This document shows, in pieces, positions 23,122 to 40,281 of a DNA stretch of 64,000 nt (the stretch's first letter is position 1; every line of letters starts with the position of its first letter). The position numbers were made by a program, and so were the translations under genes. The stretch lies in contig NZ_JANIBC010000002.1 in the NCBI RefSeq assembly GCF_024505085.1, positions 239,016 through 303,015 on the forward strand. Direction: 5' to 3'. Source of the DNA: Parvularcula maris. Lineage in GTDB: Bacteria; Pseudomonadota; Alphaproteobacteria; Caulobacterales; Parvularculaceae. A model generated the notes under the pieces. The model saw only the letters and a list, made by a program, of their open reading frames with translations. It had not been told where the DNA came from and made no database searches.

Positions 23122-24245
23122 AGTCACCCATCTGCGAGATGTTCGGGATCGAGTTTCCCCTCCTCGCCTTCAGTCACTGCCGCGATGTGGTGGCAGCGGT
23201 CTCCCGCGCAGGCGGCATGGGGGTCTTCGGCGCTGTCAATCACCCCCCGGAGCTGCTGGAGGAGGAGCTCGCCTGGATCGACGATCATGTGGACGGCAAG
23301 CCCTACGGCCTCGACCTCATCGTCCCCAACGCCACCGCGCTTCAGGCAGGGCCTGTGGACAAGGACGCACTTCTTTCCATGGTGCCAGAGGAGCACAAGA
23401 ACTTCGCAGCGGACCTTCTGGAGAAGAGCGGCGTCTCCACCAATACGCTCGAGCAGAGCCGCCGCGAGCATCTTCACTTCACGGACAACCTCACGCCTCA
23501 CGGTGCGGAGGCCGTGCTCGACGTGGCCCTTGCCCACCCTATCAAGCTGATGGTCAACGCATTGGGCGTTCCGCCCGAGATCATGCTTCAGAAGGGCCGA
23601 GAGCACGGCGTGGCCGTCGGTGCGCTAGTCGGCTCGGCGAAGCATGCAGCGCGGCAGGTCGAGGCGGGCGTGGATGTGCTGATCGCGGCGGGCGGCGAGG
23701 CAGGCGGGCATTGCGGTGAGGTCTCGACCATCGTTCTCGTTCCCGAAGTTGTCCGCGCCGCGGAAGGCACGCCGGTGCTGGCCGCTGGCGGCATCGCCAC
23801 GGGCGCGCAGATGGCGGGTCTGATGGCCATGGGCGCGGCGGGCGCCTGGTGCGGCTCGGTCTGGCTGACGACCTCGGAGGCGGAGACCAGCCAGTCCGTC
23901 AAAGAGAAGATGCTTACCGCCACCTCCGCCGACACGGTCCGCTCCCGCTCGCGCACCGGCAAGCCCTCCCGGCAGCTGAAAAGTCCCTGGACCGAAAGTT
24001 GGGATAAGGAGGGGCCGGCACCCCTGCCCATGCCGCTCCAGACCCTGGTCACCGAACCCGCTCTGAGGCATCTCGACAAGCTCGCGGACGGCGGCCATGA
24101 GGGGGCGAAAGAGCTCTCCACCTACTGGGTCGGCCAGGCGGTCGGTCTGATGAACGAGACCGAGAGCGCAGGCCGGGTGGTGCAGCGCTTCAAGGAGGAG
24201 TTCGCGGAAGCCTATGAGCGTCTGGCCGAGGCGCTCGGCGAATGA
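23118..24245 (+). CDS. Nitronate monooxygenase-like FMN-dependent protein
   Basis: The 375-residue TIM-barrel protein shows the nitropropane dioxygenase/nitronate monooxygenase layout: GIEFPLLAFSHCRDVVAAVSRA at the start, IAAGGEAGGHCGEVST in the core, and AAGGIATGAQMAGLMAMGA, the FMN-phosphate loop. Known relatives oxidise alkyl nitronates or act as other FMN oxidoreductases. Here the tight operon with acyl-CoA catabolism suggests a different substrate, possibly an acyl-CoA or unsaturated intermediate, but this is unproven. It overlaps both neighbours by four bases (ATGA). Confidence 0.75.
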
Positions 24246-25045
24246 TTCCCGTCGCACACGACTTCCTCGCTGAAAGCTACGCGCTCTCCTCCGTGCTCAA
24301 CCGTCCGGATCTCGACTGGGACCGCGAGCTGCTTTTCAAGGGCTGGACCGCCAACCAGATCGTGCGCCACCTCCACCTCTGGAACCAGGCAGCCCTCCTC
24401 AGCCTAACCGATGAAGCGGGCTTCCAGACCATGCTGACCGAAGCCATGCCGGTCATGATGAGCGGCGGGCTGCGCGCCTATGAGGACCAGCGCTATGGCG
24501 AGCTCGAAGGCGAGGCGCTGCGCAAGGCGTGGCTGACGGGCGCGGAGGAGACGGCTGATGCTTTCGCGAAGGCTGACCCCGACCGTCGCCTGCCCTGGGT
24601 CGGGCCTCCCATGAGCGCCTCCTCCTCCATCGGTGCGCGGCTCATGGAGACCTGGGCGCACGGCCAGGCGATCTACGACGATCTCGGCATCGAGCGGCGG
24701 GACGAGGACCGCATCGAGGAGATCGCCACCTTGGGTGTGCGAACCTTCGGTTGGACCTACGCCGTACGCGGACAGGACAAACCCTCTACCAAGCCCTATG
24801 TGGAGCTGACCGCGCCCTCGGGGGCTGTCTGGCGCTTCAACGAGGAGCGCGACGACGAGCGGATCGAAGGTCCGGCGACCGCCTTCTGTCAGGTGGTGAC
24901 TCAGACCCGCAACATCGCCGACGTGCCGCTTCGGGTGACGGGCGAGGTTGCGAAGGACTGGATGAGCAAGGCACAGTGCTTCGCAGGCGCCGCCGAGACG
25001 CCGCCGCCGCCAGGCATGAGGCGCCCTAGGGGAGAGAGTGAATGA
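24242..25045 (+). CDS. TIGR03084 family protein (DinB/maleylpyruvate-isomerase-like)
   Basis: The 267-residue product has an N-terminal DinB-like helical bundle (WTANQIVRHLHLWNQAAL) and the hallmark WVGPPMSASSSIGARLMETWAHGQAIYDDLG, then a C-terminal domain with VWRFNEERDDERIEGPATAFCQVVTQTRN. The fold is shared with mycothiol-dependent S-transferases and MDMPI-type isomerases, where His residues bind metal. Proteobacteria lack mycothiol, so the thiol partner, if any, is unknown. It lies in the AtuA-type operon, overlapping both neighbours by four bases, and two genes before the inositol-phosphate synthase. Confidence 0.75.
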   Translation: MIPVAHDFLAESYALSSVLNRPDLDWDRELLFKGWTANQIVRHLHLWNQAALLSLTDEAGFQTMLTEAMPVMMSGGLRAYEDQRYGELEGEALRKAWLTGAEETADAFAKADPDRRLPWVGPPMSASSSIGARLMETWAHGQAIYDDLGIERRDEDRIEEIATLGVRTFGWTYAVRGQDKPSTKPYVELTAPSGAVWRFNEERDDERIEGPATAFCQVVTQTRNIADVPLRVTGEVAKDWMSKAQCFAGAAETPPPPGMRRPRGESE

Positions 25046-26085: not shown

Positions 26086-27297
26086 ATGCACGGACAATTA
26101 GGAGTGGCCATTGTCGGCCTAGGAGGCGCTGTGGCGTCCACGGCTGCGGCGGGCATCGAGCTCCTCAAGCTCGGCAAAGCGGATGAGACCGGCTTGCCCT
26201 TGGGAGACCTGCCAGGCCTCGTTCCCTATACGGGCATGACGTTCGGCGGGTGGGATCTCTATGCGGAGGATCTCCTGGCTGCTGCCAAGCACCACAAGGT
26301 TCTGGACCGCGATCAGATCGACGACGCCGAGGAAGCGCTGGCGAAGATCAAGCCGTGGCCTGCCATGGGCGACGCCAGTTTCTGCTCGGGCGTCGACGGG
26401 GAGCACCGCCACGGAGACCTCTCTCACCGGGAGAAGATCGACTGCCTCATCGAGGATCTAGTACGCTTCAGGGAGGAGAGCGGCGGCTCTGCCGTTCTCA
26501 TCAACCTCGCCTCGGTCGAGCGTACGCCTGACCGTCAGAACCCGATCTATCACATCAAGGAGGCGTTCGAGGCGGCCCTCGACGCCTCCGATCCCGAGAT
26601 CAGCCCGGCCATGCTCTACGCCTATGCGGCCATCAAGTGCGGTGTGCCCTACGGCAACTTCACGCCCAGCTTCTCGGGCGACGTGCCCGCGCTGATCGCC
26701 ATGGCGGAGGAGGCCGGCGTGCCGCTTGCCGGCAAGGACGGCAAAACCGGCCAGACCTTCATGAAGACCGTGCTGGCCCCCGCCTTTCGCGACCGTGCGC
26801 TGAGGATCGACGGCTGGTACTCCACCAACATTCTCGGCAACCGCGACGGCGAGGCGCTCAACGAGCCGAACAGCCTCGCCTCGAAGATCGAAACCAAGGG
26901 CGACGTCCTGAACTCGATCGTCGGCTACGATGTCGGATCGCACCTCGTACAAATCAACTACTACAAGCCGCGCGGTGACGAGAAGGAGGCCTGGGACAAT
27001 ATCGACGTCTCAGGCTTCCTCGGACGTCCCATGCAGATCAAGCTGAACTTCCTCTGCCGCGACAGCGTGCTCGCAGCGCCCCTGGTGATCGAGATCGCCC
27101 GCTGCCTGGACCTCGCCAAACGGCGTGGCGAGGGCGGCATTCTCGAACCGTTGGGCGTGTTCTTCAAGGCGCCCATGACGCAGCCCGGCCAGACTGTCCA
27201 GCACGCCTTCCCCGAGCAGCAGGCTGCCCTTCAGACCTGGCTCGCCGGTGAGACCATGCAGCAGAGCTACGATGCAGCCCGCGCCGCAGCCGAGTAG
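26086..27297 (+). CDS. Inositol-3-phosphate synthase
   Basis: ATG 26086 follows GGAGGGAAC and gives MHGQLGVAIVGLGGAVASTAAAG, an NAD-binding Rossmann start. The 403-residue protein carries the myo-inositol-1-phosphate synthase core: ALINLASVERTPDR, AYAAIKCGVPYGNFTPSFSG, GKDGKTGQTFMKTVLAPAFRDR and GWYSTNILGNRDGEALNEPNS, with the conserved lysines of the cyclisation site. The enzyme converts glucose 6-phosphate to inositol 3-phosphate using NAD. It is the first gene of a nine-gene run of sugar-modifying functions and supplies the probable cyclitol precursor. Genes downstream overlap in tandem, so the whole run is likely one transcript. Confidence 0.93.
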   Translation: MHGQLGVAIVGLGGAVASTAAAGIELLKLGKADETGLPLGDLPGLVPYTGMTFGGWDLYAEDLLAAAKHHKVLDRDQIDDAEEALAKIKPWPAMGDASFCSGVDGEHRHGDLSHREKIDCLIEDLVRFREESGGSAVLINLASVERTPDRQNPIYHIKEAFEAALDASDPEISPAMLYAYAAIKCGVPYGNFTPSFSGDVPALIAMAEEAGVPLAGKDGKTGQTFMKTVLAPAFRDRALRIDGWYSTNILGNRDGEALNEPNSLASKIETKGDVLNSIVGYDVGSHLVQINYYKPRGDEKEAWDNIDVSGFLGRPMQIKLNFLCRDSVLAAPLVIEIARCLDLAKRRGEGGILEPLGVFFKAPMTQPGQTVQHAFPEQQAALQTWLAGETMQQSYDAARAAAE

Positions 27298-28216
27298 TTT
27301 TCCGGCTCACCTGCCCCCCTCGGCCGCCACTCGCCTAGCGAGGGCGGCCTCCCTCTTCCCAGCGCTTCAGGACCTCAAACGCATGCGGCGCGCCGGCGCC
27401 CAAGGCTCGCTGGCGGAGCAGGCGTTCCTCGAGGGTTGGTCGCTTCTGACCGCTGGTGCCGAGCCTTACCAGGCTGCCCAGCTTCTGCTGCGCCGCGCCC
27501 TTCTGGACAACCAGTTCGCCGGTCTTCGCCGCGAGGAACTCGAGGAAGTGCTCGACCAAGAGCGGGCCGCCGCGATCGAGGCCGCCGCGCTAGCCAAGTC
27601 CGTGGAGGGATCGTTCGAGGACCACCCTCTTCTGGGCGAGGCTGGAAAGCCTGTCGTAACCACGGGAGACGTCCCCGCCTTCGCGGCCCTCCTGGCCGAA
27701 CAGCCAAGGGCCGGAGCAACCCATCCGACCGAGGGGCGCCTCTTCCTCTACCCGCCCGAGAGCCATGCCGAGCACTGCTGGGGCGTGGCGATCTACGCTA
27801 TCCTTCTGGCACCCTCCTTCGGCGCCGATATCGGCACCGTCTACCTCGCGGCGATGGGACATCATCTGCACAATGCCTACCTGCCCGATGGCGGGTTCGC
27901 CGGTGAGATGCTTCTGGAGCCTCACCTCCAAGCGGTCATGCAGGGTTTTAGAAAGAAGGCGCTCGCCGAGCTACCTGTTTCGCTGGCAGACGAGCTGAAC
28001 GAAGCCCACGACATCATCTCCGCCTCAGCCGCGCCGGAAGCCATGGCGTTCCATGCGGCTGATGTCTTGGACAGGGTGCTGGATGTGCGGTGGCGGGCGC
28101 AAGCTGCCGGCTTCACGCTCGACATCGCCACGAAGACATACGGTCTGGTGCATGAAGGCCCGCACAAGGACTACCACGAGACGGTCCTCACCGCCGCGAA
28201 GATCGACCCGTGCTGA
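27272..28216 (+). CDS. HD-domain-like putative metal-dependent phosphohydrolase
   Basis: The start at ATG 27272 lies inside the inositol-phosphate synthase tail; a GTG at 27248 would add eight residues. The 314-residue protein has an N-terminal helical, Ala-rich part and then a His-rich core: PESHAEHCWGVAIYAILLAP, AAMGHHLHNAYLPDGGFAGE (His197, His198, His200), and FHAADVLDRVLDVRW with His261 and Asp264. The layout resembles an HD-type hydrolase, but I cannot match it to a named family. If it is a phosphatase it could remove phosphate from inositol 3-phosphate or from a glycosylated derivative. Metal and substrate are not shown by sequence. Confidence 0.55.
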   Translation: MQPAPQPSSFPAHLPPSAATRLARAASLFPALQDLKRMRRAGAQGSLAEQAFLEGWSLLTAGAEPYQAAQLLLRRALLDNQFAGLRREELEEVLDQERAAAIEAAALAKSVEGSFEDHPLLGEAGKPVVTTGDVPAFAALLAEQPRAGATHPTEGRLFLYPPESHAEHCWGVAIYAILLAPSFGADIGTVYLAAMGHHLHNAYLPDGGFAGEMLLEPHLQAVMQGFRKKALAELPVSLADELNEAHDIISASAAPEAMAFHAADVLDRVLDVRWRAQAAGFTLDIATKTYGLVHEGPHKDYHETVLTAAKIDPC

Positions 28217-29331
28217 ATCTCTTCGATCCGGATACAGGCAGCCCGCTTAGCTACCGAGAAGCGAACCTGCTGTGCTCGGCGGAAGGCAAGCTCTGGCCCG
28301 TGATCGAGGGCATTCCATGGCTACGAACAAACCGGGAGGAGATGAGGCTCGAGGCGACTAGTCTCATCGAGGCAGGCCGGATAGAAGACGCGACGCTCAC
28401 CCTCCTGCGTGACCAGGACGATTTCTGCCCGACCCCTCCGCCTTCGCACGAAGACGTTCGAGCCATGCTGAACGACCGAGAAGCGACCTTCCGCAGCAGC
28501 ATGGAGGCGCTCGCCTATGGACGGGTCGCCAGCTACTTCGCCCACCGCTGGTCCGCGCCTACCTATCTCAGCGGCCTGGCGCTGATGGCTATGGTGGCCG
28601 AGCCTGGGGTGCCCCTTATCGAGGTCGCCTGCGGTACGGGACAGCTTATCGCTGAGGCAGCAAAGCGGGGCTTTGCGACCTATGCCAGCGACGTGGTCTT
28701 CTCTAAATGCTGGCTCGGCAAGAAGTTCATCAGCTCAGAAACGAGCTTCATCTGCTGTGACGCCGTATCCGGATCACCACCCTTGCGCATCGAGGGCCAG
28801 GGGAGCGTCTTCTGCCACGACGCCTTCTACTTCTTCCCCGATAAGCAGGCTTCCCTCGACGGAATGAGGCTTCTGGCTGACGGCGGACGGGTCGGGATCG
28901 GTCATGCGCATACGGACACAGACCCGACAGGGATCGCCGGTACGCCGCTTCCCATCGCTGACTACAAGGCACTGTCGCCTGGAGCTTCTTTCTTCTCCGA
29001 TGACGTACTGACTGACGCCATCATCGGCAATCACCAACCGGAGGAAGGGGCGGAAGAGGCCGACGCAGTAAGCTTCGTGGAGGGCGGGGCACCGCTCGAT
29101 GCCCTTCGCTTCGCCTTACCCGCTGCCGCTGCCCTTCGCCGCAACCCCCTCCTTCGGGAGCGAGAGGGCACGTACGGCCCGCACTGGCCCGATGAGGGTT
29201 TCGCCGCGGAATACGCCGGAGCAGGATATCTGTCAGGAGAGGGGACGCTTCCCGCCGACGGTGCCCTATTATCTCAGCATCATCATGCAGCGAGACACCG
29301 CCTGCTCCTCGACCTTCCGGAGCGGTGGTGA
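28210..29331 (+). CDS. Class I SAM-dependent methyltransferase with Trm112-like N-terminus
   Basis: GTG 28210 overlaps the preceding stop. Of 373 residues, the first 40 (LSYREANLLCSAEGKLWPVIEGIPWLR) match the Trm112/UPF0434-like pattern ending in GIPWL, but most zinc cysteines are missing; one Cys remains. The methyltransferase core follows near residue 140: LIEVACGTGQLIAEAAKRG (SAM-binding motif I), with acidic residues in YASDVVFSKC and CHDAFYFFP. The C-terminal third is long and less conserved. It could methylate the product of the inositol cluster. The substrate and whether it acts on O, N or S are unknown. Confidence 0.75.
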   Translation: MLNLFDPDTGSPLSYREANLLCSAEGKLWPVIEGIPWLRTNREEMRLEATSLIEAGRIEDATLTLLRDQDDFCPTPPPSHEDVRAMLNDREATFRSSMEALAYGRVASYFAHRWSAPTYLSGLALMAMVAEPGVPLIEVACGTGQLIAEAAKRGFATYASDVVFSKCWLGKKFISSETSFICCDAVSGSPPLRIEGQGSVFCHDAFYFFPDKQASLDGMRLLADGGRVGIGHAHTDTDPTGIAGTPLPIADYKALSPGASFFSDDVLTDAIIGNHQPEEGAEEADAVSFVEGGAPLDALRFALPAAAALRRNPLLREREGTYGPHWPDEGFAAEYAGAGYLSGEGTLPADGALLSQHHHAARHRLLLDLPERW

Positions 29332-30296
29332 TGATCCGTTTGGGTATCATCGGTGCCGGATGGGTAGCCAGAGACTTCGCTCTGCCTGCGATCGAAGCGG
29401 CTCAGGACGGGACGCTCGTCGCCGTCGCCGATCCGAAGGAGGGCGTTCCGGGTTACCCTCAATATCAAGACCACCAAGCCATGCTGGACGCAGAAAAGCT
29501 CGACGCAATTTATGTGGCGAGCCCCAACCATCTGCACCCGCAGCACGTGCTAGACGCCCTCCATACTGGCTGCCACGTGCTCTGCGAGAAGCCCCTCGCC
29601 ATCGCAAGCTCCGACGCCGAGGAGATGGCGGCGCTGGCGACCCGTCGCGGGTTGGTTCTGCAGACGGCTTTCGATCAGCGCCACCACCCGGCTCACCGCC
29701 TGATGAAGCAGCTCGTCCAGGAAGGAACGCTCGGTACACTGACGCAGGTCCGTATCGACTACGCCTGCTGGGTCGATGAGGAGTTCCTTCCGGACAACTG
29801 GCGGATCGAGGCGGAGCGGGCGGGCGGCGGCGCGGTCATCGACCTGGCTCCTCACGGGCTCGACCTCGTCGAGTATCTCACCGGGGAGAGGCTGACCACT
29901 CTTCATGTCCTCCGCCAGAGGCGTCTTCACGGCTACGCCGTCGATGACGGGGGCGTCCTGACCGGCCGCACGGAGAGCGGCATCCTTCTCTCCCAGACCG
30001 TCGGCTACAACCGCCCGGAGAAACTGCCGCGGCGGCGATTGGAGATCATCGGGAGCGAGGGCATCCTCCTGGCCGAGAATACGATGGGACAGACCCCTGG
30101 AGGATGTCTCACCCTCACGACCTCCTCCGGCGAGCGCCGCTCCATAGAGTTCGGGCAGACACCGCCTTTCGAAGCGCAGTTCGACAGCTTCTTCGAAGCC
30201 TGTAACGCGAGAAAATCCGATCGTCTCCCTACAGAGGACGCAAGGCTCGTGGCGCTCCTGGAACAGGGGTTCGAGGGGGACGCGGCATGGCGCTGA
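29331..30296 (+). CDS. Gfo/Idh/MocA-family oxidoreductase
   Basis: ATG 29331 gives MIRLGIIGAGWVARDFAL and shares its first base with the previous stop (TGATG). The 321-residue protein has the N-terminal NAD(P) Rossmann motif GIIGAGWVA, the DAIYVASPNHLHPQH segment, and CHVLCEKPLAIAS, the hallmark EKP. The C-terminal part carries WRIEAERAGGGAVIDLAPHGLDLVEYLTG with the family catalytic Asp-His pair. Inositol 2-dehydrogenases and other sugar dehydrogenases are typical members. With inositol-phosphate synthase encoded three genes upstream, oxidation of inositol or of a glycosyl-inositol to a ketone is a reasonable guess, still untested. Confidence 0.88.
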   Translation: MIRLGIIGAGWVARDFALPAIEAAQDGTLVAVADPKEGVPGYPQYQDHQAMLDAEKLDAIYVASPNHLHPQHVLDALHTGCHVLCEKPLAIASSDAEEMAALATRRGLVLQTAFDQRHHPAHRLMKQLVQEGTLGTLTQVRIDYACWVDEEFLPDNWRIEAERAGGGAVIDLAPHGLDLVEYLTGERLTTLHVLRQRRLHGYAVDDGGVLTGRTESGILLSQTVGYNRPEKLPRRRLEIIGSEGILLAENTMGQTPGGCLTLTTSSGERRSIEFGQTPPFEAQFDSFFEACNARKSDRLPTEDARLVALLEQGFEGDAAWR

Positions 30297-31108
30297 CCCA
30301 CTACGCCTGCACCCATTGCGGCGGATGGCTCCTTTGGTTCGAGGGGAAGCAGCCCCTCTCCTGCCCCGTCTGCATGGATCCCCGCAACGCGCTGCCGGAG
30401 AACGGCTTCTCCTTCGTTACCTTGGCCGAAGCTCAGTCGGGCCGCACCACCGAAATCACGAGGGTCGCTCCCAACCTTCGTGTCGCAAGGGAGACACCGG
30501 CGCTGGGCCTCGGCTCTGCCGGATGGCTCGTCAGTACGGACAGCGGAACCGTCTCCATCGAGGCTGCAGGGTGCTACTCCGATAGTGCCTTGTCGGAGAT
30601 AGGCTCGCTTCACCGGATCGCTGCCACCCACCCGCACGGCTACGGCGCGATGTGGCAGCTTCAAGCCCATAGCAGCGCGCCGGTCAGTATACACCGCCTC
30701 GATATACCGCATACCAAAGCCTTCAAGGTCACCATGCCCCTCGATGATCAGGGGCACCTAGCTCCCTCCATCCGCTACCGGAAGCTTGGGGGACACTATG
30801 ATGGTCAGTGTGCCTTCTATGACGAGGAAGGCGCATGCCTGTTCCTCGGCGATGCACTCAAGGTCGACTATGGCACTAGCGGGGAAGCTGTTGCCCTCTC
30901 GGTTCATAAAGGGTTCCACTACGCCATTCCGCTGACGCACAGTGAGATACGCCGCTACAGGGAAGTCGCCGAAAGCTTTCCGTTCCGGAACGTCGCCACG
31001 ACGTTCGATTATGCGGAAGGGTTGAGCCGCGAGTTCGTTCTCGCCTTCTACGACAAGCTGCTCAGTATGCCGCTCACCACCGAACCCATCAGGATCGACA
31101 GCCTATGA
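30287..31108 (+). CDS. Zinc-ribbon protein with degenerate metallo-beta-lactamase-like domain
   Basis: ATG 30287 follows GAGGGGGA. The 273-residue protein starts with a probable zinc ribbon: Cys8-x2-Cys11 and Cys26-x2-Cys29. From about residue 60 it resembles an MBL fold, with GWLVSTDSGTVSIEAAGCYSD, THPHGYGAMWQLQ at the first metal motif position (only two His, no HxHxDH), YRKLGGHYDGQCAFYD with His170, and LFLGDAL with Asp189. Most metal ligands of active MBL hydrolases are missing or changed, so the function may be binding, or a changed reaction. Overlaps upstream and downstream by four to ten bases tie it to the oxidoreductase and YcaO genes. Confidence 0.55.
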   Translation: MALTHYACTHCGGWLLWFEGKQPLSCPVCMDPRNALPENGFSFVTLAEAQSGRTTEITRVAPNLRVARETPALGLGSAGWLVSTDSGTVSIEAAGCYSDSALSEIGSLHRIAATHPHGYGAMWQLQAHSSAPVSIHRLDIPHTKAFKVTMPLDDQGHLAPSIRYRKLGGHYDGQCAFYDEEGACLFLGDALKVDYGTSGEAVALSVHKGFHYAIPLTHSEIRRYREVAESFPFRNVATTFDYAEGLSREFVLAFYDKLLSMPLTTEPIRIDSL

Positions 31109-32562
31109 CCGAAACCCTTCAGCGTGCCGCCGACCTCTACCGACAAGGGCTTCCTTCGGGCGAGTTCTGCGAGTTCGCCATCGAGGGATGCGATGCTTTG
31201 CGAACGGGTGTGCATCTGATGCGCTCAGGCTTGTCCCGGAGCGGGGGCCCGTTCGTTTGCGGTATGGGCTATGGAAGCAGCCAGTTCGAAGCTGCCGTCA
31301 GTGCCCGCGGCGAGCTGTTCGAGATGATCACCCTGGCCGACGCAGCGAAGGAGTGGACGCACACCGAAGGAACGTTCGAGGAGGTCGACGGTAAAGAAGG
31401 CTTCCCTGCTATCGACCCCTACGGCCTCGTTCTGCCTGTCGGACTAGATGATGTGGACCGGCACCGCTTCGTTTGGACGGACGTCAGGAACCTCCTCACC
31501 GACGAGACGTTCTGGGCACCGATCGAGTTTGTTGCAAGCTCACGCGCCGCCCTTCCGAGCGGCTACCAAGCGGTCACACCTCCGATCAGCAACGGCAACG
31601 GTGCCGGGGATAGCGAAGCGCGGGGGATCACCCACGGTCTTTTGGAGCTCTGCCAGAGGGACGGCAACGCATCGAGCTTCAGGGCGCTCGATCAGGGACG
31701 GATCCTCGAGAACCCGCCCCTCGATCCCGATACTGCGCAACTGGTGGCAAGGCTTCAGGAACGGGGCTTTACGATCCTGTTCAAGCTCGCCGATCTGTCC
31801 GTCGGGATACCGAGCGTCTACGCCATTCCCGTCGTGGAGGGAGAGGACAACCCCCTTGCCATGACCGCCTGCGGCGAGGCAGCCGATCCAGATCTGCCCC
31901 TCGCGCTACGCAAGGCTCTGCTGGAGGCGCTGGCGGCGCGAGCACGCAAGGTGTTCAGCCACGACACGACCGGTGTCCACCGGCACTATGAGCCTAGCGT
32001 CGTTTCGGAACGGGCGGCCAAGATCGACCCGGCACAGGAAGAACCGAGGGCTGTCGAAGCGATGCAGGAGCTTCTGGCGCTCTCGCCTAGGCAGGTTCGA
32101 GAGCGCCTCGAAAGCACCGTCTACCGAAGAGATCGCACCTTCCCGAGTTCGTCGCTCGATACGGCGCGCCTTCCCAACGAGCCTGAGGACCGGGTCCGCT
32201 ATATGCTGGACCGCTTGCAGGCAGAGAACATGACGGCCTACGCTAAAACCGTTAGGCGGGGCGATGCCTACGCTGCGAAAGTCCTCGTGCCGGGCATCGA
32301 GATGGAGCTAGCCAGCTTCTACCGCCTCGGCGTTCGCGGCGCGAGGCGCCTTCTGGAAAGGGGCGACCCGCTGCTGAGACACCAACCGGGACCGGGTCGG
32401 CAAAAGCTTACTCTTCGCCCGGAGCAAGAGGCGGAGCTGGGCGGCCCCCTCTATCTCGACAAGGAGCGCCTCGACCGCATCACCGCTCCCCTCTACTTCC
32501 TCTACCGCGAGCCCACACCAGGGGTCACCCGCGTAATGGCCGGTCGTAGGGATGCGGCATGA
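31105..32562 (+). CDS. YcaO-domain protein without adjacent RiPP partner
   Basis: The 485-residue protein shows a YcaO domain in its first 290 residues: GMGYGSSQFEAAVSARGELFEMI (E70 and E73 of the first ATP motif), TPPISNGNGAGDSEARGITHG followed by LLELCQRD (E181, Q184, R185, D186), and RKALLEALAARARK (E274 and R279). The family activates an amide oxygen with ATP to form azolines, thioamides or amidines. Compared with the usual ElvERD and EaaQsR, it reads ELCQRD and EALAAR, so two motif positions differ. The C-terminal 190 residues are unassigned and have no Pro-rich end. No ThiF, TfuA or precursor peptide gene is next to it. ATGA overlaps couple it to both neighbours. Confidence 0.75.
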   Translation: MTETLQRAADLYRQGLPSGEFCEFAIEGCDALRTGVHLMRSGLSRSGGPFVCGMGYGSSQFEAAVSARGELFEMITLADAAKEWTHTEGTFEEVDGKEGFPAIDPYGLVLPVGLDDVDRHRFVWTDVRNLLTDETFWAPIEFVASSRAALPSGYQAVTPPISNGNGAGDSEARGITHGLLELCQRDGNASSFRALDQGRILENPPLDPDTAQLVARLQERGFTILFKLADLSVGIPSVYAIPVVEGEDNPLAMTACGEAADPDLPLALRKALLEALAARARKVFSHDTTGVHRHYEPSVVSERAAKIDPAQEEPRAVEAMQELLALSPRQVRERLESTVYRRDRTFPSSSLDTARLPNEPEDRVRYMLDRLQAENMTAYAKTVRRGDAYAAKVLVPGIEMELASFYRLGVRGARRLLERGDPLLRHQPGPGRQKLTLRPEQEAELGGPLYLDKERLDRITAPLYFLYREPTPGVTRVMAGRRDAA

Positions 32563-33401
32563 GCTTGCGGTTTGCCTACAATACCAATGGTTGCGCCAAC
32601 CACCGGCTCTATGACGCCATCGAGCTGATTGGCGCCTCCGGCTATGACGGGGTGGCGCTCACCCTCGATTGGCACCACCTCGATCCGTTTGCGGATAGCT
32701 GGCACGAAGACACGATAGCCCTCAAACGGCATCTGCAGAGCGCCGGTCTTGGCAGCGTGATCGAGACCGGTGCCCGGTACCTTCTCGACCCCCGCCGCAA
32801 GCACGAGCCTACTCTGGTCAGTGACGATGCGGAGGGCCGCGCGCGGCGCATTCGTTTCCTTCAGCGAGCGGTGGAGATCGCAGATATTCTGGAAAGCGAG
32901 GCCGTCTCGTTCTGGGCCGGTGTTCCGCATACCGCTTCGGCCCGAAGCGAAGCCTTCCAGCGTCTCGTTGAGGGAACGGCCGAGGTGACCAGCTACGCTG
33001 AGAAGTACGGTGTGATCCCAGCCTTCGAACCGGAGCCCGGTATGGCTATCGAAACCGTGTTGGAGTTTCTCGAGCTGAAGAATGCGGTGGAGGAGTTAGG
33101 CGGCCCTCTGCAACTGGCCTTGGACGTCGGGCATCTGTGGGTGACGGGCGAGAGCGATCCGGCTGAAGCTCCGGTTACGTATCAAGAGCATATCGGCACC
33201 GCCGCCATCGAGGGCATGAACCGGGGGATACACATCCATCTCCCCTTCGGCGAAGGCGACCTCGATGTTCCGGAAGTTCTGAGATCGTTTCAGAGCATCC
33301 GCTTCGACCGGCTCCTCTGCGTCGAACTGTCGCGTGAATCGCCCCGCGCGCACGAGGCTGTTCCCCAGTCTATTCATTGGCTCAAGGAGCATCTGTCATG
33401 A
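32559..33401 (+). CDS. Sugar phosphate isomerase/epimerase-like TIM barrel (xylose isomerase fold)
   Basis: The 280-residue protein begins with MSLRFAYNTNGCANHRLYDA and has the metal site of the AP-endonuclease-2/xylose-isomerase superfamily: VIPAFEPEPGMAIE (Glu), LALDVGHLWVTGE (Asp and His), GIHIHLPFGEGD and LLCVELSRESPRAHE. Relatives include inosose isomerases and dehydratases (IolE, IolI), L-ribulose epimerases and EboE-like proteins. Next to inositol-phosphate synthase and a Gfo/Idh/MocA dehydrogenase, an inosose-type substrate is an attractive guess. It begins with an ATGA overlap and ends with another into the glycosyltransferase gene. Confidence 0.75.
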   Translation: MSLRFAYNTNGCANHRLYDAIELIGASGYDGVALTLDWHHLDPFADSWHEDTIALKRHLQSAGLGSVIETGARYLLDPRRKHEPTLVSDDAEGRARRIRFLQRAVEIADILESEAVSFWAGVPHTASARSEAFQRLVEGTAEVTSYAEKYGVIPAFEPEPGMAIETVLEFLELKNAVEELGGPLQLALDVGHLWVTGESDPAEAPVTYQEHIGTAAIEGMNRGIHIHLPFGEGDLDVPEVLRSFQSIRFDRLLCVELSRESPRAHEAVPQSIHWLKEHLS

Positions 33402-34654
33402 GAGTCTGTTTTTTCTCGAGACGGTACTTTCCTGCGGTCTCCGGCATGTCCGTCTACGCCTACAACTTCATCAGAGGCATGCGCGACCTCGGCCACGAGA
33501 TCACCATGCTGTCCCAGTACCGCGGAGACGCGCCCGGTATCGCCATCTATGGGGGCGGCACGCCCCCTCCTACACAAGGCGTACGGACGATCGGCTTCAG
33601 GTCGAAGGGTGAGGAGCTTGCCCCCCACGGGCAGCCTGCCGACTTCGAGCGCGATCTCAACGAACTCGTCTCCGCGTGCATAGAAGCTCACCGGGAGCGG
33701 CCCTTCGACATCCTTCACGCTCAGTATGCCTATCCCACCGGTCTGGCCGCACTGATCGCAGGTGAGCGGCTCGGCCTTCCGGTGATTGTCTCGATCCAGG
33801 GCGGTGATGGTCACTGGGTCGGGCTCTGCTGCGAGACCCACCGCCGCGCCATGCAGGCCGTGCTGGACCACGCCAACGCGGTGATTATCGGCTGTAAGAG
33901 CTTTCGGGACGAGGTCATTGGCAACCACGGCACGGATGCCGAGCGTTTCACCATCGTGCCGGGAGCGGTCAGTACAAGCCGGTTCTTCCCCTCTCAGCGC
34001 CCCGAAAACACGCCGCTACGGCTTCTCTTTCACGGTAGAGCCGACAGGCGTAAAGGTCTGATCGACACCCTGGAGAGCTGGAAACTGCTCTGCGAGCGGA
34101 ACGTCGCCTTCGAAGGGGTGGTCTCCGGCGTAGGCCCCGATCTCGATGAGGCGGAACACTTCGTCGCCGCGAACGGTCTCGAGGAAAAGGTCGAGATAAT
34201 GGGCGCAGCGGACTACTCGGCGGTCCCGTCCATCTACCGACAGTGCGATCTGTTCGTGACACCGACCTATGCCGAGGGTTTCTCGAACACCGTGCTCGAA
34301 GCAATGGCTTCGGGCCTGCCGGTCATTGGCGGCCGGGCCGTGGGGGTGGTGGATGCCATCGAACACGAGCGCAACGGCCTTCTAGTAGAGCCAGGCGACG
34401 CCACCGGTCTCGCCGATCTGCAACAGCCGCTCATCGACGACAAGGCGCTCCGCGAACGTCTTCGAGAAGCTGCGAAGAGGGACGTCACCGAGAGGTACAG
34501 TTGGCCGGTCGTCTGCCGATCCATCGAGAAGGTCTACGAACGCGCCCTCGGACAGCTCCCCCTCCCTGACTGGGAAGCCGTGTACGATCCTTCCATCGAG
34601 CTCGCCCAAGCCGATCCCACCTGCCGCTTCAGGGCGGCACCGCACCTTCTCTAG
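33398..34654 (+). CDS. Family 4 glycosyltransferase
   Basis: ATG 33398 gives MRVCFFSRRYFPAVSGMS, a normal GT-B N-terminus; an earlier in-frame start is not needed. The 418-residue protein has DILHAQYAYPTGLAALIAG, the GT4 segment LLFHGRADRRKGLIDTLESW, and the retaining E-x7-E motif in YAEGFSNTVLEAMASGLPVIGG. GT4 enzymes transfer sugars from nucleotide donors with retention. In mycothiol synthesis a GT4 joins GlcNAc to inositol 3-phosphate, so the neighbouring Ino1 and PIG-L genes make a similar glycosyl-inositol step a fair inference. Donor and acceptor are not proved. Confidence 0.88.
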   Translation: MRVCFFSRRYFPAVSGMSVYAYNFIRGMRDLGHEITMLSQYRGDAPGIAIYGGGTPPPTQGVRTIGFRSKGEELAPHGQPADFERDLNELVSACIEAHRERPFDILHAQYAYPTGLAALIAGERLGLPVIVSIQGGDGHWVGLCCETHRRAMQAVLDHANAVIIGCKSFRDEVIGNHGTDAERFTIVPGAVSTSRFFPSQRPENTPLRLLFHGRADRRKGLIDTLESWKLLCERNVAFEGVVSGVGPDLDEAEHFVAANGLEEKVEIMGAADYSAVPSIYRQCDLFVTPTYAEGFSNTVLEAMASGLPVIGGRAVGVVDAIEHERNGLLVEPGDATGLADLQQPLIDDKALRERLREAAKRDVTERYSWPVVCRSIEKVYERALGQLPLPDWEAVYDPSIELAQADPTCRFRAAPHLL

Positions 34655-34662
34655 GGTTCGGC

Positions 34663-35418
34663 GTGAGGATCGTCGCCCTCTCCCCGCACCTCGATGATGC
34701 GGCTTTCTCCGTAGGCGGTCTGCTCGCCCGTCTCGCCGGCTCGCATGAAGTCGAGGTCCACACGCTGCTCGCCGGAGGTGTCCACCCGGCGGAGGGGTTC
34801 GCTTTAGCCTGTCAGCTCGATAAGGGGCTCTCGCGGCAGACCGACTACATGGCTCTTCGTCGTGAGGAGGACCTAGCGGCTGCCAGCATACTTGGCGTTC
34901 GGTCTTTCCACCATCAGCTCTGCGAAGCGCCCAACCGAGGCTACCACGATGCCGCTTCTCTCTTCGGTGAAGCAGTGCCGAACGATCCGCTCACGTCCCA
35001 ACTCGCTCACATGCTGCCGGAGATCGTGGAGGGCGCAGACTTGGTGCTCGCCCCTTTCTGCCACGGCAACCATATCGACCACGTCCTTGTCAGGGCAGCC
35101 GCCGAGAAAACTTGCGCGGATCGGCTTCTTCTCTGGCGCGATCTTCCTTACGCGGTCCGCTGCCCCGATCCGAGCAGCGAGTGGGTTAGTGTGCGGGTGA
35201 GCGATCATCTCGGTGTCAAGATCGACGCCTGTCTCGCCTACGCATCGCAGATCGGCTTCCAGTTCGGCTCTCCGGAAGCCGCCCGCCAAGCTATTCTGAG
35301 GGATACGCAGCGCATAGGAGGCGAGCTTGTCCTGCCTTGCTCGGACGCCGCAAGGGCTGCTCTAGGGGCGCTAGCGCCGCCCGTTACCAAACAATCACAA
35401 GCGCAACCCGTCTCCTGA
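34663..35418 (+). CDS. PIG-L family N-deacetylase
   Basis: The 251-residue protein starts at GTG 34663 and has the zinc site of the family: SPHLDDAAFSVGG near the N-terminus (His and Asp-Asp) and FCHGNHIDHVLV (His pair) near residue 135. PIG-L/MshB/BshB relatives remove acetyl from N-acetylglucosamine linked to inositol or malate. It follows the glycosyltransferase by eight bases. The likely role is to free an amine on the glycosylated product of this cluster, or on another amide. A 129-base gap then separates it from the next gene. Ends of the domain after residue 230 are Pro-rich and unassigned. Confidence 0.85.
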   Translation: MRIVALSPHLDDAAFSVGGLLARLAGSHEVEVHTLLAGGVHPAEGFALACQLDKGLSRQTDYMALRREEDLAAASILGVRSFHHQLCEAPNRGYHDAASLFGEAVPNDPLTSQLAHMLPEIVEGADLVLAPFCHGNHIDHVLVRAAAEKTCADRLLLWRDLPYAVRCPDPSSEWVSVRVSDHLGVKIDACLAYASQIGFQFGSPEAARQAILRDTQRIGGELVLPCSDAARAALGALAPPVTKQSQAQPVS

Positions 35419-35547
35419 TCCCCCTGACCCCGGCGGTTCTAAAGCTCCACATCCGAAGGAGTGCCGCCTCGGTCAAGGGTTCCAGGAACAGGGTCTGAGC
35501 TTGCGTGTTCCGATCTAGTCATCACCCTGCCCCTCAAAAGGACCAAG

Positions 35548-37857
35548 ATGAGCTTCACCCCCGCCACGAACCTGTCGGCAGCTTCGTCTGAGGCGCTCAC
35601 GGTTGCCTATGTCAGCACCCTGCCGCCCCGGCAGTGTGGGTTGGCCACCTTCTGTACGGCTCTCGAAGACGCGGTCAGCCGTGCCGCCCGGTCCTACTCC
35701 GTGCCGGTCCCCGTTCTGGAGAGCAACCTCGCCCCCGATGGCCCCTCCATCGTCCGCGATGATGTCGACAGCTACATAAAGGCGGCTCAGCAGCTCAATC
35801 AGCTTCCCGTCGATATCGTCTGCATTCAGCATGAGTTCGGAATATTCGGCGGTGCGTCGGGTTCTCTTCTAGGCCGCTTCCTCTCGACGCTCGACAAACC
35901 CGTCATCAGTATACTCCATACGATACTTCCCGATCCGAGCGAGGATCAGCGGCGGGCCATGGACGCCGTAATCGCAGGCTCCGCCAAGCTCGTCACCATG
36001 TCGCAGAAAGGGCGGAGATTTCTGAAAGAAGTGTACGGCGTTCCGGAGGAAAAGATCGTGCTCATCGAGCACGGCTTCTACCGCCGGACCGCTACCGATC
36101 CGGAAGCGCAGAAGAAGCAAGTGGGCCTGGGCGGCAAGAAAGTGCTTCTCACCTTCGGCCTCGTTTCCGCTGGTAAGGGTATTGAAACCGCCATCTCCGC
36201 CCTGCCCGATATCGTCAAACTTCATCCGGACCTCGTCTACGTCATCGCTGGCGCCACCCACCCGGCGGTGCTGCGTGACGAGGGGGAACGCTATCGCGAC
36301 AGCCTCGTCCAACTGGCGGAGGAGTTGGGCGTCGTAGAGCACCTCCACTTCGTCAACCGCTTCATGGAGGATGGTGAGCTACTCGACTGGCTCTCTCTCG
36401 CCGATGTCTACGTCACCCCCTACCCCAATCTTCGGCAGATCACATCGGGCACGCTGAGCTTCGCCTTCGGCAACGGCGTTCCCGTGGTCTCGACGCCCTA
36501 CTGGCATGCCGAGGAACTCTTGGCGGACGGGCGCGGCTGCCTCGTCCCGCCGCATGATCCAGAAGCCATGGCGTCGGCGATCACGGGGCTGCTCTCCGAT
36601 GACGAGAAGCGCCTCGCCATGGCCGATCGCGCCCGCGCTTATGCCGACGCTTTCACTTGGGAGGCGACCGGTCACCGCTATGCCGAACTGATGCAGAAAG
36701 TGTCGTCGGACTGGCGTAGCCGACGCAAGCTGCACTTCGTCGATTTCAGCCGCAACGCGCCTGCGGCCAGCATCGAGCTCCCCTTCGCTCATCTCTCCCG
36801 TCTCAACGACGGTGTCGGCATCGCTCAGCATGCGGTCCACAAGATCCCAGACCGCCGCCACGGCTACTGCACCGATGACTGCGCACGCATGCTGATGGTC
36901 GTAGCGCCCGCCACCGGGCGAAGCGAGACACCCCCCGCCGCGGCGCGCTCCGCCTATACTTGCGCCGCGTTTCTCGAGCATGCCTGGAACGAGGAGGAGG
37001 TGCGCTTCCGCAACTTCATGTCCTACGACCGCAACTGGCTCGATCAGGGCGGGTCGGACGACAGCAACGGGCGAGCGCTCTGGGCCTTGGGCCTCACCAG
37101 CGCCCGCGCCGGTGACGAGGGGCTGAGGGCATGGGCGGAGAACGCCTATCTTCGCGCCCGCCCCCTGAGGGAGAATCTTCAGTCGCCACGTAGCCTGGCC
37201 TTCGCCGTTCTGGCGGAACACGAGCGCCGCCGCGTCTACGGACCCGATGGGGACGATCCCTTCTTGCGTCTGGGTAAGCACCTGATGCACCAGCGCGGCG
37301 AGATAGCCGCCCGCCAGCCCGACTGGGTGTGGTTCGAAACGGCGCTCAGCTACGACAATGCACGCCTGCCCCAGGGTCTTCTTCTGGCAGCGGAAGTGAT
37401 GAAACGAGAGGACTGGATGGAGGAAGGGCTCAAGACCCTCCGCTGGCTCTGCGAGCTTCAGTGGAAGGGCGACTTCTTCAACTTCATCGGTACCAGGAAC
37501 TTCGGTCAGGACTACACGGCGTTCCACAAGATCGACGAGCAGCCCATCGAAGCCGCCGCCCTGGTCGACGCAGCCGTCGCCGCCTACCGGTTCTCTCGCG
37601 ATGAGAGCTGGGCGGATATCGCCGAGCAGGCCTATGCCTGGTTCCTCGGCCAGAACCGGCTGCGGCTTCCCCTCGCCGATATGAGCGACGGCTCCTGTCT
37701 CGACGGCCTCCACGCGGAGCGAGGAAACCAGAACTGCGGGGCGGAGAGCACGCTTGCCCTCCACCAGGCGAGCCTGTCCATCAGGGACCTGCGCCGCCTC
37801 ACCTTGAACGAACAGAGCGACCACCTCGAACAGGTGGCCGGGGGACAGACCATATGA
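35548..37857 (+). CDS. Family 4 glycosyltransferase fused to an alpha/alpha-toroid domain
   Basis: ATG 35548 follows AAAAGGACC and gives MSFTPATNLSAASSE; an upstream GTG at 35461 would add 29 residues with no support. The first 375 residues of the 769 are a GT-B enzyme: VAYVSTLPPRQCGLATF, QHEFGIFGGASGSLLGRF, LLTFGLVSAGKGIETAIS and PYPNLRQITSGTLSFAFGNGVPVVS. The remainder is helical, with repeated aromatic and Asp-rich segments such as RHGYCTDDCARMLMV, WLDQGGSDDSNGRALWALG and WVWFETALSYDNARLPQGL, like an alpha/alpha-barrel of glycoside hydrolases. It overlaps a GH130-like gene by four bases, a pair seen in other bacteria. Its sugar substrate is unknown. Confidence 0.85.
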   Translation: MSFTPATNLSAASSEALTVAYVSTLPPRQCGLATFCTALEDAVSRAARSYSVPVPVLESNLAPDGPSIVRDDVDSYIKAAQQLNQLPVDIVCIQHEFGIFGGASGSLLGRFLSTLDKPVISILHTILPDPSEDQRRAMDAVIAGSAKLVTMSQKGRRFLKEVYGVPEEKIVLIEHGFYRRTATDPEAQKKQVGLGGKKVLLTFGLVSAGKGIETAISALPDIVKLHPDLVYVIAGATHPAVLRDEGERYRDSLVQLAEELGVVEHLHFVNRFMEDGELLDWLSLADVYVTPYPNLRQITSGTLSFAFGNGVPVVSTPYWHAEELLADGRGCLVPPHDPEAMASAITGLLSDDEKRLAMADRARAYADAFTWEATGHRYAELMQKVSSDWRSRRKLHFVDFSRNAPAASIELPFAHLSRLNDGVGIAQHAVHKIPDRRHGYCTDDCARMLMVVAPATGRSETPPAAARSAYTCAAFLEHAWNEEEVRFRNFMSYDRNWLDQGGSDDSNGRALWALGLTSARAGDEGLRAWAENAYLRARPLRENLQSPRSLAFAVLAEHERRRVYGPDGDDPFLRLGKHLMHQRGEIAARQPDWVWFETALSYDNARLPQGLLLAAEVMKREDWMEEGLKTLRWLCELQWKGDFFNFIGTRNFGQDYTAFHKIDEQPIEAAALVDAAVAAYRFSRDESWADIAEQAYAWFLGQNRLRLPLADMSDGSCLDGLHAERGNQNCGAESTLALHQASLSIRDLRRLTLNEQSDHLEQVAGGQTI

Positions 37858-39152
37858 AACTGATCGACGGAGCAAGGCTGCAGGATCTTTCGCTGCCGCC
37901 CGACCAGGAGGCTGTGCTGCTGCAGCCCTTCGGACCGGTCGTCATCCGCGCGCCCTATGTCTCGAACGAGAGCGGCAAGGTCCGCTCCGCCGCGGAACGC
38001 CTGCTCGCGCTGTCGGACGAAGAGTGCGAAGCGCTTCTCGCCAAGGTCCGTGATCAGTTCGGTCGTAGGCACCGCAACTTCGACCAGATCATCTGCGAGC
38101 GCTGGGACAAGGTTCGCTTCGCCCTTCTCGATGCGGACAAATACGACGAGACGCGCCGCTACCTGATCGGCGCGTTCTTCATGAGCGAGTACACCTTCAA
38201 ATCGACCGCCTATTTCAACCCCTCCGTCGTTCGGCACCCGGACGATAAGGACGGCGACGAGATGAAGGTCATCCTCTCCGTCCGCGCCGTAGGCGAGGGG
38301 CATATCTCCTCGGTGGCTTTCCGCGAGGGCGTCATCAAGCCCGACGGCACCCTGGAGGTGGCAGAGCCCGATGGGGTCTACGAACGCGGCGAGCTCTCCG
38401 GCCTGCGCATGCGGGAGGGTTCGATGACCGAGTGCAAAATCGCAGACGTGAACTTTCTGCACGGCGGCCCACTCAGCTCACGTATCCTCTTTCCCCTCAC
38501 CGCCGCCACCTCGAACGGTATCGAAGACCTTCGTCTGGTCGAGATGGACGACGGAAGCGGCTATTACGGCACCTATACCGCCTATGACGGGCGCCATATC
38601 GCCTCGCAGATGCTTCATACGGAGGACTTCGAGACCTTCTCGCTCTCCGACATGGAAGGCGATGCCGTCGGCAACAAGGGCATGGCGCTCTTCCCCTCCA
38701 AGATCGGCGGTCACTACGCCATGCTCGGCCGCCAGGACGCGGAGAAGGTCTGGCTTCTCTATTCCGACCAACTCGGCCACTGGTCAGGAGGCGAGGTGCT
38801 GCTCGAGCCTCGCTACGAGTGGGAGTTCATGCATATGGGCAATTGCGGCTCGCCCATGCGGACCGATGAGGGATGGCTCATCCTTACCCACGGCGTCGGC
38901 CCTGTCCGCGAGTACACGATCGGGGCCGCCCTTCTCGATCTCGACGATCCGTCCAAGGTGATCGGCCGGACTTCCGTCCCGCTGGTCGGGACGGACGACC
39001 AGGACCGCCATGGCTATGTCCCTAACGCGGTCTATAGCTGCGGTGGGATCGTCCACAACGATCGGCTCATTATGCCGTTCGGCCTCGCTGACTACGAAGT
39101 GAGATGCGTCGACGTCGGTGTCCGCGATCTGATCGACCAGATGGAAAACTAG
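37854..39152 (+). CDS. GH130-like glycoside phosphorylase/hydrolase
   Basis: The 432-residue protein has a five-bladed propeller pattern with family features: RRHRNFDQIICERW, KSTAYFNPSVVRHPD, GSMTECKIADVNFLHGG, and MGNCGSPMRTDEGWLILTHGVGPVREYTIGAALLDLDDP. GH130 enzymes cleave beta-mannosides with phosphate (phosphorylases) or water. The stop-start ATGA overlap with the preceding transferase/toroid gene indicates a coupled pair, perhaps building and trimming one mannose-containing glycan or storage molecule. It is followed by a 67-base gap before the type III PKS gene. Confidence 0.82.
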   Translation: MKLIDGARLQDLSLPPDQEAVLLQPFGPVVIRAPYVSNESGKVRSAAERLLALSDEECEALLAKVRDQFGRRHRNFDQIICERWDKVRFALLDADKYDETRRYLIGAFFMSEYTFKSTAYFNPSVVRHPDDKDGDEMKVILSVRAVGEGHISSVAFREGVIKPDGTLEVAEPDGVYERGELSGLRMREGSMTECKIADVNFLHGGPLSSRILFPLTAATSNGIEDLRLVEMDDGSGYYGTYTAYDGRHIASQMLHTEDFETFSLSDMEGDAVGNKGMALFPSKIGGHYAMLGRQDAEKVWLLYSDQLGHWSGGEVLLEPRYEWEFMHMGNCGSPMRTDEGWLILTHGVGPVREYTIGAALLDLDDPSKVIGRTSVPLVGTDDQDRHGYVPNAVYSCGGIVHNDRLIMPFGLADYEVRCVDVGVRDLIDQMEN

Positions 39153-40275: not shown

Positions 40276-40281
40276 GGTCTC

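Follow-up and report, generated by a model that had tools for sequence, protein, structure and literature searches.

The known systems with the closest likeness to the locus described here are the YcaO systems for TOMM and thioamide formation, the mycothiol and bacillithiol pathways, mycosporine-like amino acid biosynthesis and the ebo pathway. To our knowledge, all characterised YcaO proteins act on peptides or proteins. For the ebo system, a cyclitol is thought to be formed by the sugar-phosphate cyclase EboD, and the final product is believed to be a cyclitol linked to a lipid (available sections of PMC5133447 and PMC6282210). As for literature joining YcaO and Methylobacterium, the available part of PMC8776678 names one YcaO gene, that of Roseomonas mucosa. 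In agreement with the preliminary description, whose author knew of no such cluster, a description of the gene combination reported below was found neither in the literature searched nor among the matches listed.

Gene content of the run

The window, i.e. the whole analysed stretch of Parvularcula maris DNA (64,000 nt), contains nine ORFs at positions 26086-35418, all on the + strand:

26086..27297, +, Ino1, inositol-3-phosphate synthase (PF07994, 188 bits; PF01658, 114 bits; nearest solved structure 7nwr); the only Ino1 of the genome
27272..28216, +, HD-domain protein with His-His replacing His-Asp (HD_3, structure model, alignment)
28210..29331, +, class I SAM methyltransferase (Methyltransf families in homologues; invariant ExACGxG)
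29331..30296, +, Gfo/Idh/MocA oxidoreductase (PF01408, PF22725; 88 bits)
30287..31108, +, rubredoxin-like zinc ribbon plus metallo-beta-lactamase (MBL) fold (homologue domains, structure model)
31105..32562, +, YcaO protein, the only one of the genome (PF02624, 135.1 bits, cut-off 25.7; nearest solved protein by profile MJ1094)
32559..33401, +, xylose-isomerase-like TIM barrel, Ino1 partner (AP_endonuc_2, PF01261, 111 bits; alignment)
33398..34654, +, GT4 glycosyltransferase (PF00534/PF13579, 113 bits)
34663..35418, +, PIG-L family N-deacetylase, final gene of the conserved run (PF02585, 50.6 bits, cut-off 28.2, i.e. within the deacetylase family)

According to these coordinates, with the nearest ATG assumed as the start, successive genes from Ino1 to GT4 overlap by 26, 7, 1 (7 with GTG), 10, 4, 4 and 4 bases, and an 8-base gap separates GT4 from PIG-L. 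The starts of the Ino1 (26086), HD (27272), Gfo (29331) and GT4 (33398) genes are probable. The next genes (GT4b, GH130 and type III PKS) had no match of their own beside the runs of relatives in the 6 loci and the 80 loci checked, which indicates that the run ends at PIG-L. Its GC content (62-65%) is the same as that of the surroundings and thus gives no sign of recent transfer.

Among solved structures, 7nwr was nearest to Ino1 (252 bits); a five-membered-cyclitol synthase (6k96-like Ino1, 59 bits vs 252) is less likely. The HD protein matched HD_3 with 27 bits (cut-off 22.5), and its structure model (pLDDT 89) had HDDC2, YfbR and OxsA as top matches (Z about 10-12.3), the best value, 12.3, lying in the range where helical models match through a common arrangement. 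The usual HD pair is absent, and H199-H200 are invariant in the 14 alignment rows (the HD proteins of L028, by the length filter, and L037, with a stop codon at the coordinates used, were left out, as were any further rows whose length departed from the median by over 60 residues). No myo-inositol oxygenase was present among the 50 structural matches listed for this model, an absence that does not argue against such an identity.

The window methyltransferase and MBL proteins gave no Pfam match at E 0.001. The identities proposed for them in the preliminary description nevertheless hold, since their homologues carry the families: Methyltransf_25 was found in 14/15 methyltransferase homologues, with ExACGxG invariant in the alignment, and Lactamase_B and a rubredoxin-like domain in 13/16 and 5/16 MBL homologues, respectively. 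The modelled structure of the MBL protein likewise adopts the MBL fold, with Z 19.6 against 2p97. The Gfo/Idh/MocA oxidoreductase scored 98 bits with the IolG model TIGR04380, below its cut-off of 355, which leaves the earlier comparison with inositol oxidation weak; inositol catabolism (iol) was rejected on account of this score and of the biosynthetic nature of Ino1.

The YcaO protein was below the cut-offs of the SagD-type model TIGR03604 (87.6 bits, cut-off 219.25) and the McrA-glycine thioamidation model TIGR03266 (48.2 bits, cut-off 365). All 18 YcaO members matched one common set of three NCBIfam models, and the window protein reached the cut-off of none of these. MJ1094, its nearest solved relative by profile, is an archaeal YcaO linked to thioamidation. 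No precursor peptide was detected at the window junctions, where genes overlap or sit 8 bases apart, and inspection by eye of the Gfo-YcaO gap in eight Methylobacterium loci revealed no shared small ORF; a precursor may be encoded at a distance.

Conservation and spread of the run

Relatives were collected with the TIM-barrel gene (374 loci), and the best 80 of the 374, a choice that favours close, syntenic loci, were examined (L109-L111 lie outside the 80 counted). In 70 of these 80, eight genes occur in one order, on one strand and in a compact arrangement. The zinc-ribbon/MBL gene accompanies them in 31 of the 70 colinear relatives and not in the other 39; it is absent from 39/80 loci, chiefly of Methylobacterium. 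Median junctions in the relatives, with estimated starts, range from -10 to +3.5 bases, except for Gfo-YcaO, which measures 119 bases where the MBL gene is absent. Distance correlations, calculated for the 34 loci with all nine genes, were r 0.84-0.96 for all 36 gene pairs (0/999 shuffles); the loci of this co-variation test and of the tree were picked for the presence of the MBL gene, so that Methylobacterium is in neither. The nine genes are a travelling unit, kept together, ordered and co-varying across distant bacteria. The preliminary description had given the single-direction run and its limits correctly. Conserved synteny in unrelated genera, proposed there as a check, is strongly borne out, and instead of breaking up randomly in relatives the run holds together.

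YcaO was detected in 108/111 Methylobacterium genomes, in 2/62 genomes of the family of the window, in 23/250 Sphingomonas and in 6/21 Neolewinella, as well as on four plasmid-collection records, where the run was present in 3/3 of those inspected. The three Methylobacterium genomes without YcaO and the patchy carriage elsewhere show the product to be dispensable. According to record titles, the carriers come from air, leaf, desert-crust and marine sources. The methyltransferase gene is absent from Corallococcus and Hymenobacter loci, and the clusters of two Neolewinella genomes are complete but for the TIM-barrel gene, with a TIM encoded elsewhere in the genome. Two Neolewinella genomes keep Ino1 and TIM without YcaO, so some of these genes also serve a different purpose. 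Within the genus of the window, Ino1 was found in 2/2 carriers and in 0/8 non-carriers (10 genomes). This distribution, and the single YcaO of the window's genome, speak against the earlier concern that the genes might be unrelated housekeeping copies, although Sphingomonas commonly has another Ino1 besides that of the cluster.

Proposed pathway and competing explanations

The nine genes rather likely constitute one self-contained, horizontally moving pathway leading to a small polar modified cyclitol that carries a hexosamine. In an order of steps that we infer, (i) Ino1 would convert glucose-6-phosphate into inositol phosphate, (ii) its TIM-barrel partner would reshape the ring as an isomerase, epimerase or dehydratase, (iii) the Gfo/Idh enzyme would oxidise the ring to a ketone, (iv) the HD protein might, doubtfully, remove the phosphate, (v) the methyltransferase and the MBL-fold protein could add a methyl group and a tailoring reaction, respectively, both as optional steps, and (vi) GT4 would attach an N-acetylhexosamine, from which PIG-L would then free the amine. 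With ATP, YcaO would activate this small molecule at a carbonyl or vinylogous amide so that a nitrogen (or sulfur) nucleophile can attack, thereby carrying the chemistry of other YcaO proteins from the peptide backbone to a cyclitol. Most likely, this YcaO acts on a small molecule and not on a peptide; if its substrate is a cyclitol, the enzyme family leaves peptide chemistry. The modified glycosyl-inositol or aminocyclitol of the preliminary description still appears the best choice, with the product itself being what we infer. Its role is probably cell protection in exposed habitats. The pathway is kept as a unit across distant bacteria and is near-universal in Methylobacterium, without a family model of its own.

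We regard it as possible, if unlikely, that the cluster is a second, independent natural route to mycosporine-like sunscreens, yielding a water-soluble compound in bacteria of leaves and air, that the UVA absorber already known from Methylobacterium originates from it, and that its YcaO is the first to act on a carbohydrate-like small molecule. An inositol-derived enolic ring would be O-methylated and glycosaminylated, and YcaO would turn it into a UVA-absorbing vinylogous amidine. This reading was favoured by the carriage of the cluster and by its absence from two of three nodulators. The literature searched names no genes for the Methylobacterium UVA absorber, and the available parts of the papers naming methylobamine or UVA-absorbing compounds give no structure. 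The cluster supplies a short gene list for testing the origin of this compound of leaf bacteria. UV-repair genes were sought near the cluster in 101 loci (L023-L123, many of them repeats or incomplete and four being Streptomyces ebo loci) and the window: spore-photoproduct-lyase family genes were found beside it in L099 (one) and L110 (two), and L069 has a photolyase-related gene (DPRP). In a follow-up of 20 Sphingomonas regions, of which L125, L133, L138 and L141 repeat L105, L099, L104 and L100, repair genes were matched only in the already-known L099 genome, in 0/16 new regions (two short) and in 0/20 control regions. Flank gene picks were longest-ORF guesses, shadow ORFs included. Photolyase queries (the two longest stop-to-stop ORFs from each of the window-genome loci L165 and L166) had no match in cluster loci or controls, in a search without a positive control. 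The reaction-centre family occurred in 1/23 Sphingomonas carriers vs 36/227 others (Fisher 0.22). The phototrophy test and the repair-gene follow-up therefore lend no support to the sunscreen reading.

The genes might instead serve the synthesis of a cell-surface glycan or build the head group of a glycolipid, with the glycosyl-cyclitol placed on a lipid or polymer and not released as a free small molecule. An MdoH-like GT2 close to the cluster in 12 loci of Acetobacteraceae and in L037 and L074, the GT4/GH130 pair after the run in the window, a polysaccharide pyruvyl transferase downstream in L083 and the presumed lipid linkage of the ebo product (PMC5133447 and PMC6282210, in the sections available) all point this way. 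However, the nine include no family of membrane enzymes, prenyltransferases, flippases or polymerases, and the adjoining glycan genes differ from group to group; we consider this explanation improbable. A glycosyl-inositol compatible solute or desiccation protectant, lacking a chromophore, would agree with the inositol and hexosamine chemistry and with the sources of the carriers, but YcaO, Gfo/Idh and the methyltransferase exceed the needs of a solute, and we consider it quite improbable.

A similarly low probability is assigned to a low-molecular-weight thiol resembling mycothiol or bacillithiol, for which YcaO would deliver the sulfur. Ino1, GT4 and PIG-L recall both pathways, GT4 matched MshA (TIGR03449, 73 bits) and BshA (TIGR03999, 97 bits) weakly, and MJ1094, with its link to thioamidation, is the nearest solved YcaO by profile; these scores are far under the cut-offs of 462.5 and 273.7, as is that of Ino1 with the mycothiol model TIGR03450 (53 bits, cut-off 638), and no Cys ligase (MshC) family was found among the nine cluster genes. 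The resemblance to mycothiol synthesis noted in the preliminary description thus stands for the enzyme types but not for the specific models. It is very improbable that the target of YcaO is a peptide or protein from another locus, which the remaining genes would glycosylate: the known substrates of the family and the SagD-type match (88 bits) are in its favour, whereas no precursor was seen in the cluster, the nine include no peptide-maturation partner family, and Ino1 and PIG-L would have no evident part.

Comparison with known systems

The likeness to TOMM and thioamide systems consists in the YcaO domain; the nine genes differ from them in that a partner family is missing and no precursor peptide was seen. 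Mycothiol and bacillithiol synthesis share the enzyme types GT4 and PIG-L, plus Ino1 in the case of mycothiol, but differ in the model scores and the Cys ligase, and the run has extra enzymes. Mycosporine-like amino acid biosynthesis resembles the run only in the logic proposed here, which comprises a cyclitol ring, a methylation and an amine condensation driven by ATP. By family, the nine contain neither a DHQ-synthase match indicating a sugar-phosphate cyclase (DDGS/EEVS) nor an ATP-grasp condensing enzyme, and Ino1 with TIM, and YcaO, would replace these.

The ebo pathway differs in that the nine genes lack the UbiA, TatD, EboA, EboB, EboC, EboE and EboF families, and in that no YcaO, GT4 or PIG-L is annotated in the Streptomyces ebo runs, whose gene tables are incomplete. 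In all four Streptomyces ebo loci inspected, one gene separates Ino1 from a TIM barrel with 40-47% identity to that of the window, and no EboD cyclase is annotated. The cyclitol-forming Ino1 and TIM pair of this ebo form is present in the nine-gene run, and as a cyclitol-forming module it may account for some steps of the unsolved ebo pathway.

The nine-gene run and its occurrence

The run consists of nine ORFs identified by ORF reading of the window:

26086 to 35418, + strand, nine ORFs of the run

They encode, in order, Ino1, an HD protein, a methyltransferase (MT), a Gfo/Idh/MocA oxidoreductase (Gfo), a zinc-ribbon/metallo-beta-lactamase-fold protein (MBL), YcaO, a xylose-isomerase-like TIM barrel (TIM), GT4 and PIG-L, and the family assignments of the preliminary description agree with the domain-family matches of the window proteins and their homologues. 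Seven of the eight junctions are overlaps, while GT4 and PIG-L are separated by an 8-base gap. The window (GC content 63.8%) lies on contig 2 of a 3.19 Mb genome, whose single YcaO and single Ino1 genes are both located inside the run.

Just upstream (24242-25042), flanked by genes for a nitronate monooxygenase and an alpha/beta hydrolase, is encoded a protein with the mycothiol maleylpyruvate isomerase N-terminal domain (MDMPI_N, 82 bits). PIG-L is directly followed by a large GT4-domain protein and a GH130 phosphorylase-type protein (35461-39152), a pair that was no companion of the cluster in the loci tested. Further downstream (39220-42130) there is a row of type III polyketide synthase, methyltransferase and FAD-dependent oxidoreductase, a trio also reported for type-3 PKS clusters of Acetobacteraceae (PMC8776678).

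In the window's family, few genomes (2/62) have a YcaO of this type. Some YcaO match was detected in 18 of 398 genomes of the phylum sample, where matches with E < 1e-50 were confined to the window's own genome and five Methylobacterium genomes. Eight genes were colinear in all six loci compared (these five and a second carrier of the window's genus, G051), with the MBL gene present in G051 only. A TIM-barrel alignment scan yielded 374 relatives, the best 80 of which were retained for locus reading. Among these 80, all nine genes were colinear and compact in 31, MBL alone was missing in 39 and MT alone in one (Corallococcus); five shorter loci (L034, L039, L053, L058, L098) carried a partial run, and four, all of Lewinella/Neolewinella, had TIM alone or only Ino1 and TIM. 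The carriers include Methylobacterium, Sphingomonas, Erythrobacter, Belnapia, Roseomonas, Skermanella, Aerophototrophica and a Caulobacter, as well as Neolewinella and Leeuwenhoekiella (Bacteroidota) and Corallococcus (Myxococcota). Genus-wide, YcaO was carried by 108/111 Methylobacterium, 6/21 Neolewinella and 23/250 Sphingomonas genomes.

In the plasmid collection, YcaO occurred in records of Hymenobacter, Roseomonas and two Methylobacterium. The three records read contained all nine genes (Roseomonas), eight without MBL (Methylobacterium aquaticum) and eight without MT, with Gfo and GT4 each in two pieces (Hymenobacter). In the last (L109, Hymenobacter volaticus), which is adjoined by bshB1, the annotation splits Gfo into two overlapping ORFs; this copy may be decaying or contain sequence errors. 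Two Sphingomonas genomes (G793, G812) have one TGA within the YcaO match and possibly carry pseudogenes, and in one Methylobacterium genome (G474), assembled as one 6.8 Mb contig, two equal-score matches lie at opposite ends, perhaps because the overlap of a circular assembly was left untrimmed.

In many Sphingomonadales clusters (L066, L069, L082, L099, L102, L105) and in 10 of 20 Sphingomonas regions, two of these ten being L099 and L105 again, Ino1 is immediately preceded by a gene for a Crp/Fnr-type regulator. The flanks of 12 Acetobacteraceae loci (e.g. L057, L044, L091) encode an MFS transporter and an MdoH-like GT2, the latter also found at L037 and L074 outside the family; they are candidates for export and addition of a further sugar, respectively.

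Evidence for a single pathway

For 34 loci in which the run is complete, correlation of the gene distance matrices gave 0.84-0.96 for every one of the 36 pairs, a level reached in none of 999 shuffles. In the concatenated tree (midpoint root) the window copy clusters with Bacteroidota (support 1.0) and that of G051 with Sphingomonas and a Hyphomicrobiales MAG (0.99). The simplest reading is that these two copies, from one genus, were gained separately. Within this genus, Ino1 was present in both carriers versus none of eight non-carriers. Outside it, a second Ino1 is common: two were found in all three genus-sample Sphingomonas carriers tested (G586, G602, G603), and one or two in 7/10 non-carriers; of six Methylobacterium carriers tested, four had one and two had two, and two of three non-carriers had one. 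We consider it very likely that the run constitutes one pathway.

Two Neolewinella genomes (G458, G461) carry the other eight genes at one site (L120, L121) and TIM at a separate site, with a second Ino1 (L054) or alone (L033). Two more (L073, L076) retain Ino1 and TIM, and a YcaO search of these genomes gave no match. The pathway therefore seems to need TIM, supplied from elsewhere if necessary, and TIM seems to have a further use with Ino1.

Enzymes and putative product

The best solved match of Ino1 is inositol-3-phosphate synthase 7nwr (252 bits), the five-membered-cyclitol synthase 6k96 being distant (59 bits). Ino1 would convert glucose-6-phosphate into inositol phosphate, TIM would alter the ring and Gfo would oxidize it. 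A dephosphorylation by the HD protein is doubtful: its model (pLDDT 89) has HDDC2 (Z 12.3), YfbR (Z 10.9) and OxsA (Z 10.1) as best structural matches, a Foldseek search gave no match with E < 0.001, and all 14 aligned rows have His-His at the His-Asp position of YfbR. MT, with an invariant ExACGxG stretch, and MBL may perform optional methylation and tailoring steps. The latter consists of a rubredoxin-like ribbon and a part with the MBL fold (2p97 match, Z 19.6); it retains H115, H117, H170 and D189, the metallo-beta-lactamase motif HxHxDH being incomplete. GT4 is predicted to transfer a hexosamine and PIG-L to N-deacetylate it.

YcaO would form a C-N or C-S bond driven by ATP; Glu, Gln, Arg and Lys positions that we take to be ATP-binding are invariant in its alignment. 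Its profile is nearest to MJ1094 (111 bits; LynD 47, TruD 45), and the window protein scores below the cut-off of every NCBIfam YcaO model. The window junctions are too tight for a precursor peptide gene, and visual inspection of the wider gap in eight Methylobacterium loci revealed no small ORF common to them. Since a vinylogous acid or amide of a cyclitol ring acts like a carboxylic acid or amide, YcaO chemistry could apply to a cyclitol without any peptide. A glycosylated cyclitol, made with a non-peptide YcaO, is on balance the probable product.

Possible role and relation to known systems

It appears rather unlikely that this product is a UVA screen, a role we regard as a lead and not a result. 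In favour of this role, the cluster is near-universal in Methylobacterium, a genus for which UVA-absorbing compounds and methylobamine are reported, and nodA-bearing strains are overrepresented among its YcaO-less genomes (two of G484, G490 and G509 versus 1/108 carriers, G510; hypergeometric 0.0015, relatedness disregarded). Also in favour, spore-photoproduct-lyase family genes are near neighbours of the cluster on a Roseomonas haemaphysalidis plasmid and immediate ones in Sphingomonas RIT328; in Sphingomonas solaris, a photolyase-related gene is found at a distance of about 4 kb. However, such genes were found in none of 16 new Sphingomonas regions, and no classical-photolyase match was obtained near any locus searched. 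Moreover, carriage in Sphingomonas is not linked to reaction-centre genes (1/23 carriers versus 36/227 others), and carriers such as Corallococcus have no evident need of a sunscreen.

No description of this cluster was found among the matches listed in the literature searched. Every one of the nine enzymes falls in a known superfamily; their combination, and YcaO in such a setting, fit no system known to us. Streptomyces plasmid records contain TIM relatives with 38-47% identity (25/36 records), and all four loci read have the order Ino1, UbiA prenyltransferase, TIM, EboA, TatD, EboE and phosphodiesterase, with EboD annotated in none of them (the gene tables of that collection are incomplete). 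EboD is a sugar-phosphate cyclase thought to form a cyclitol (PMC5133447, PMC6282210); thus, Ino1 and TIM may provide the cyclitol in these loci too.
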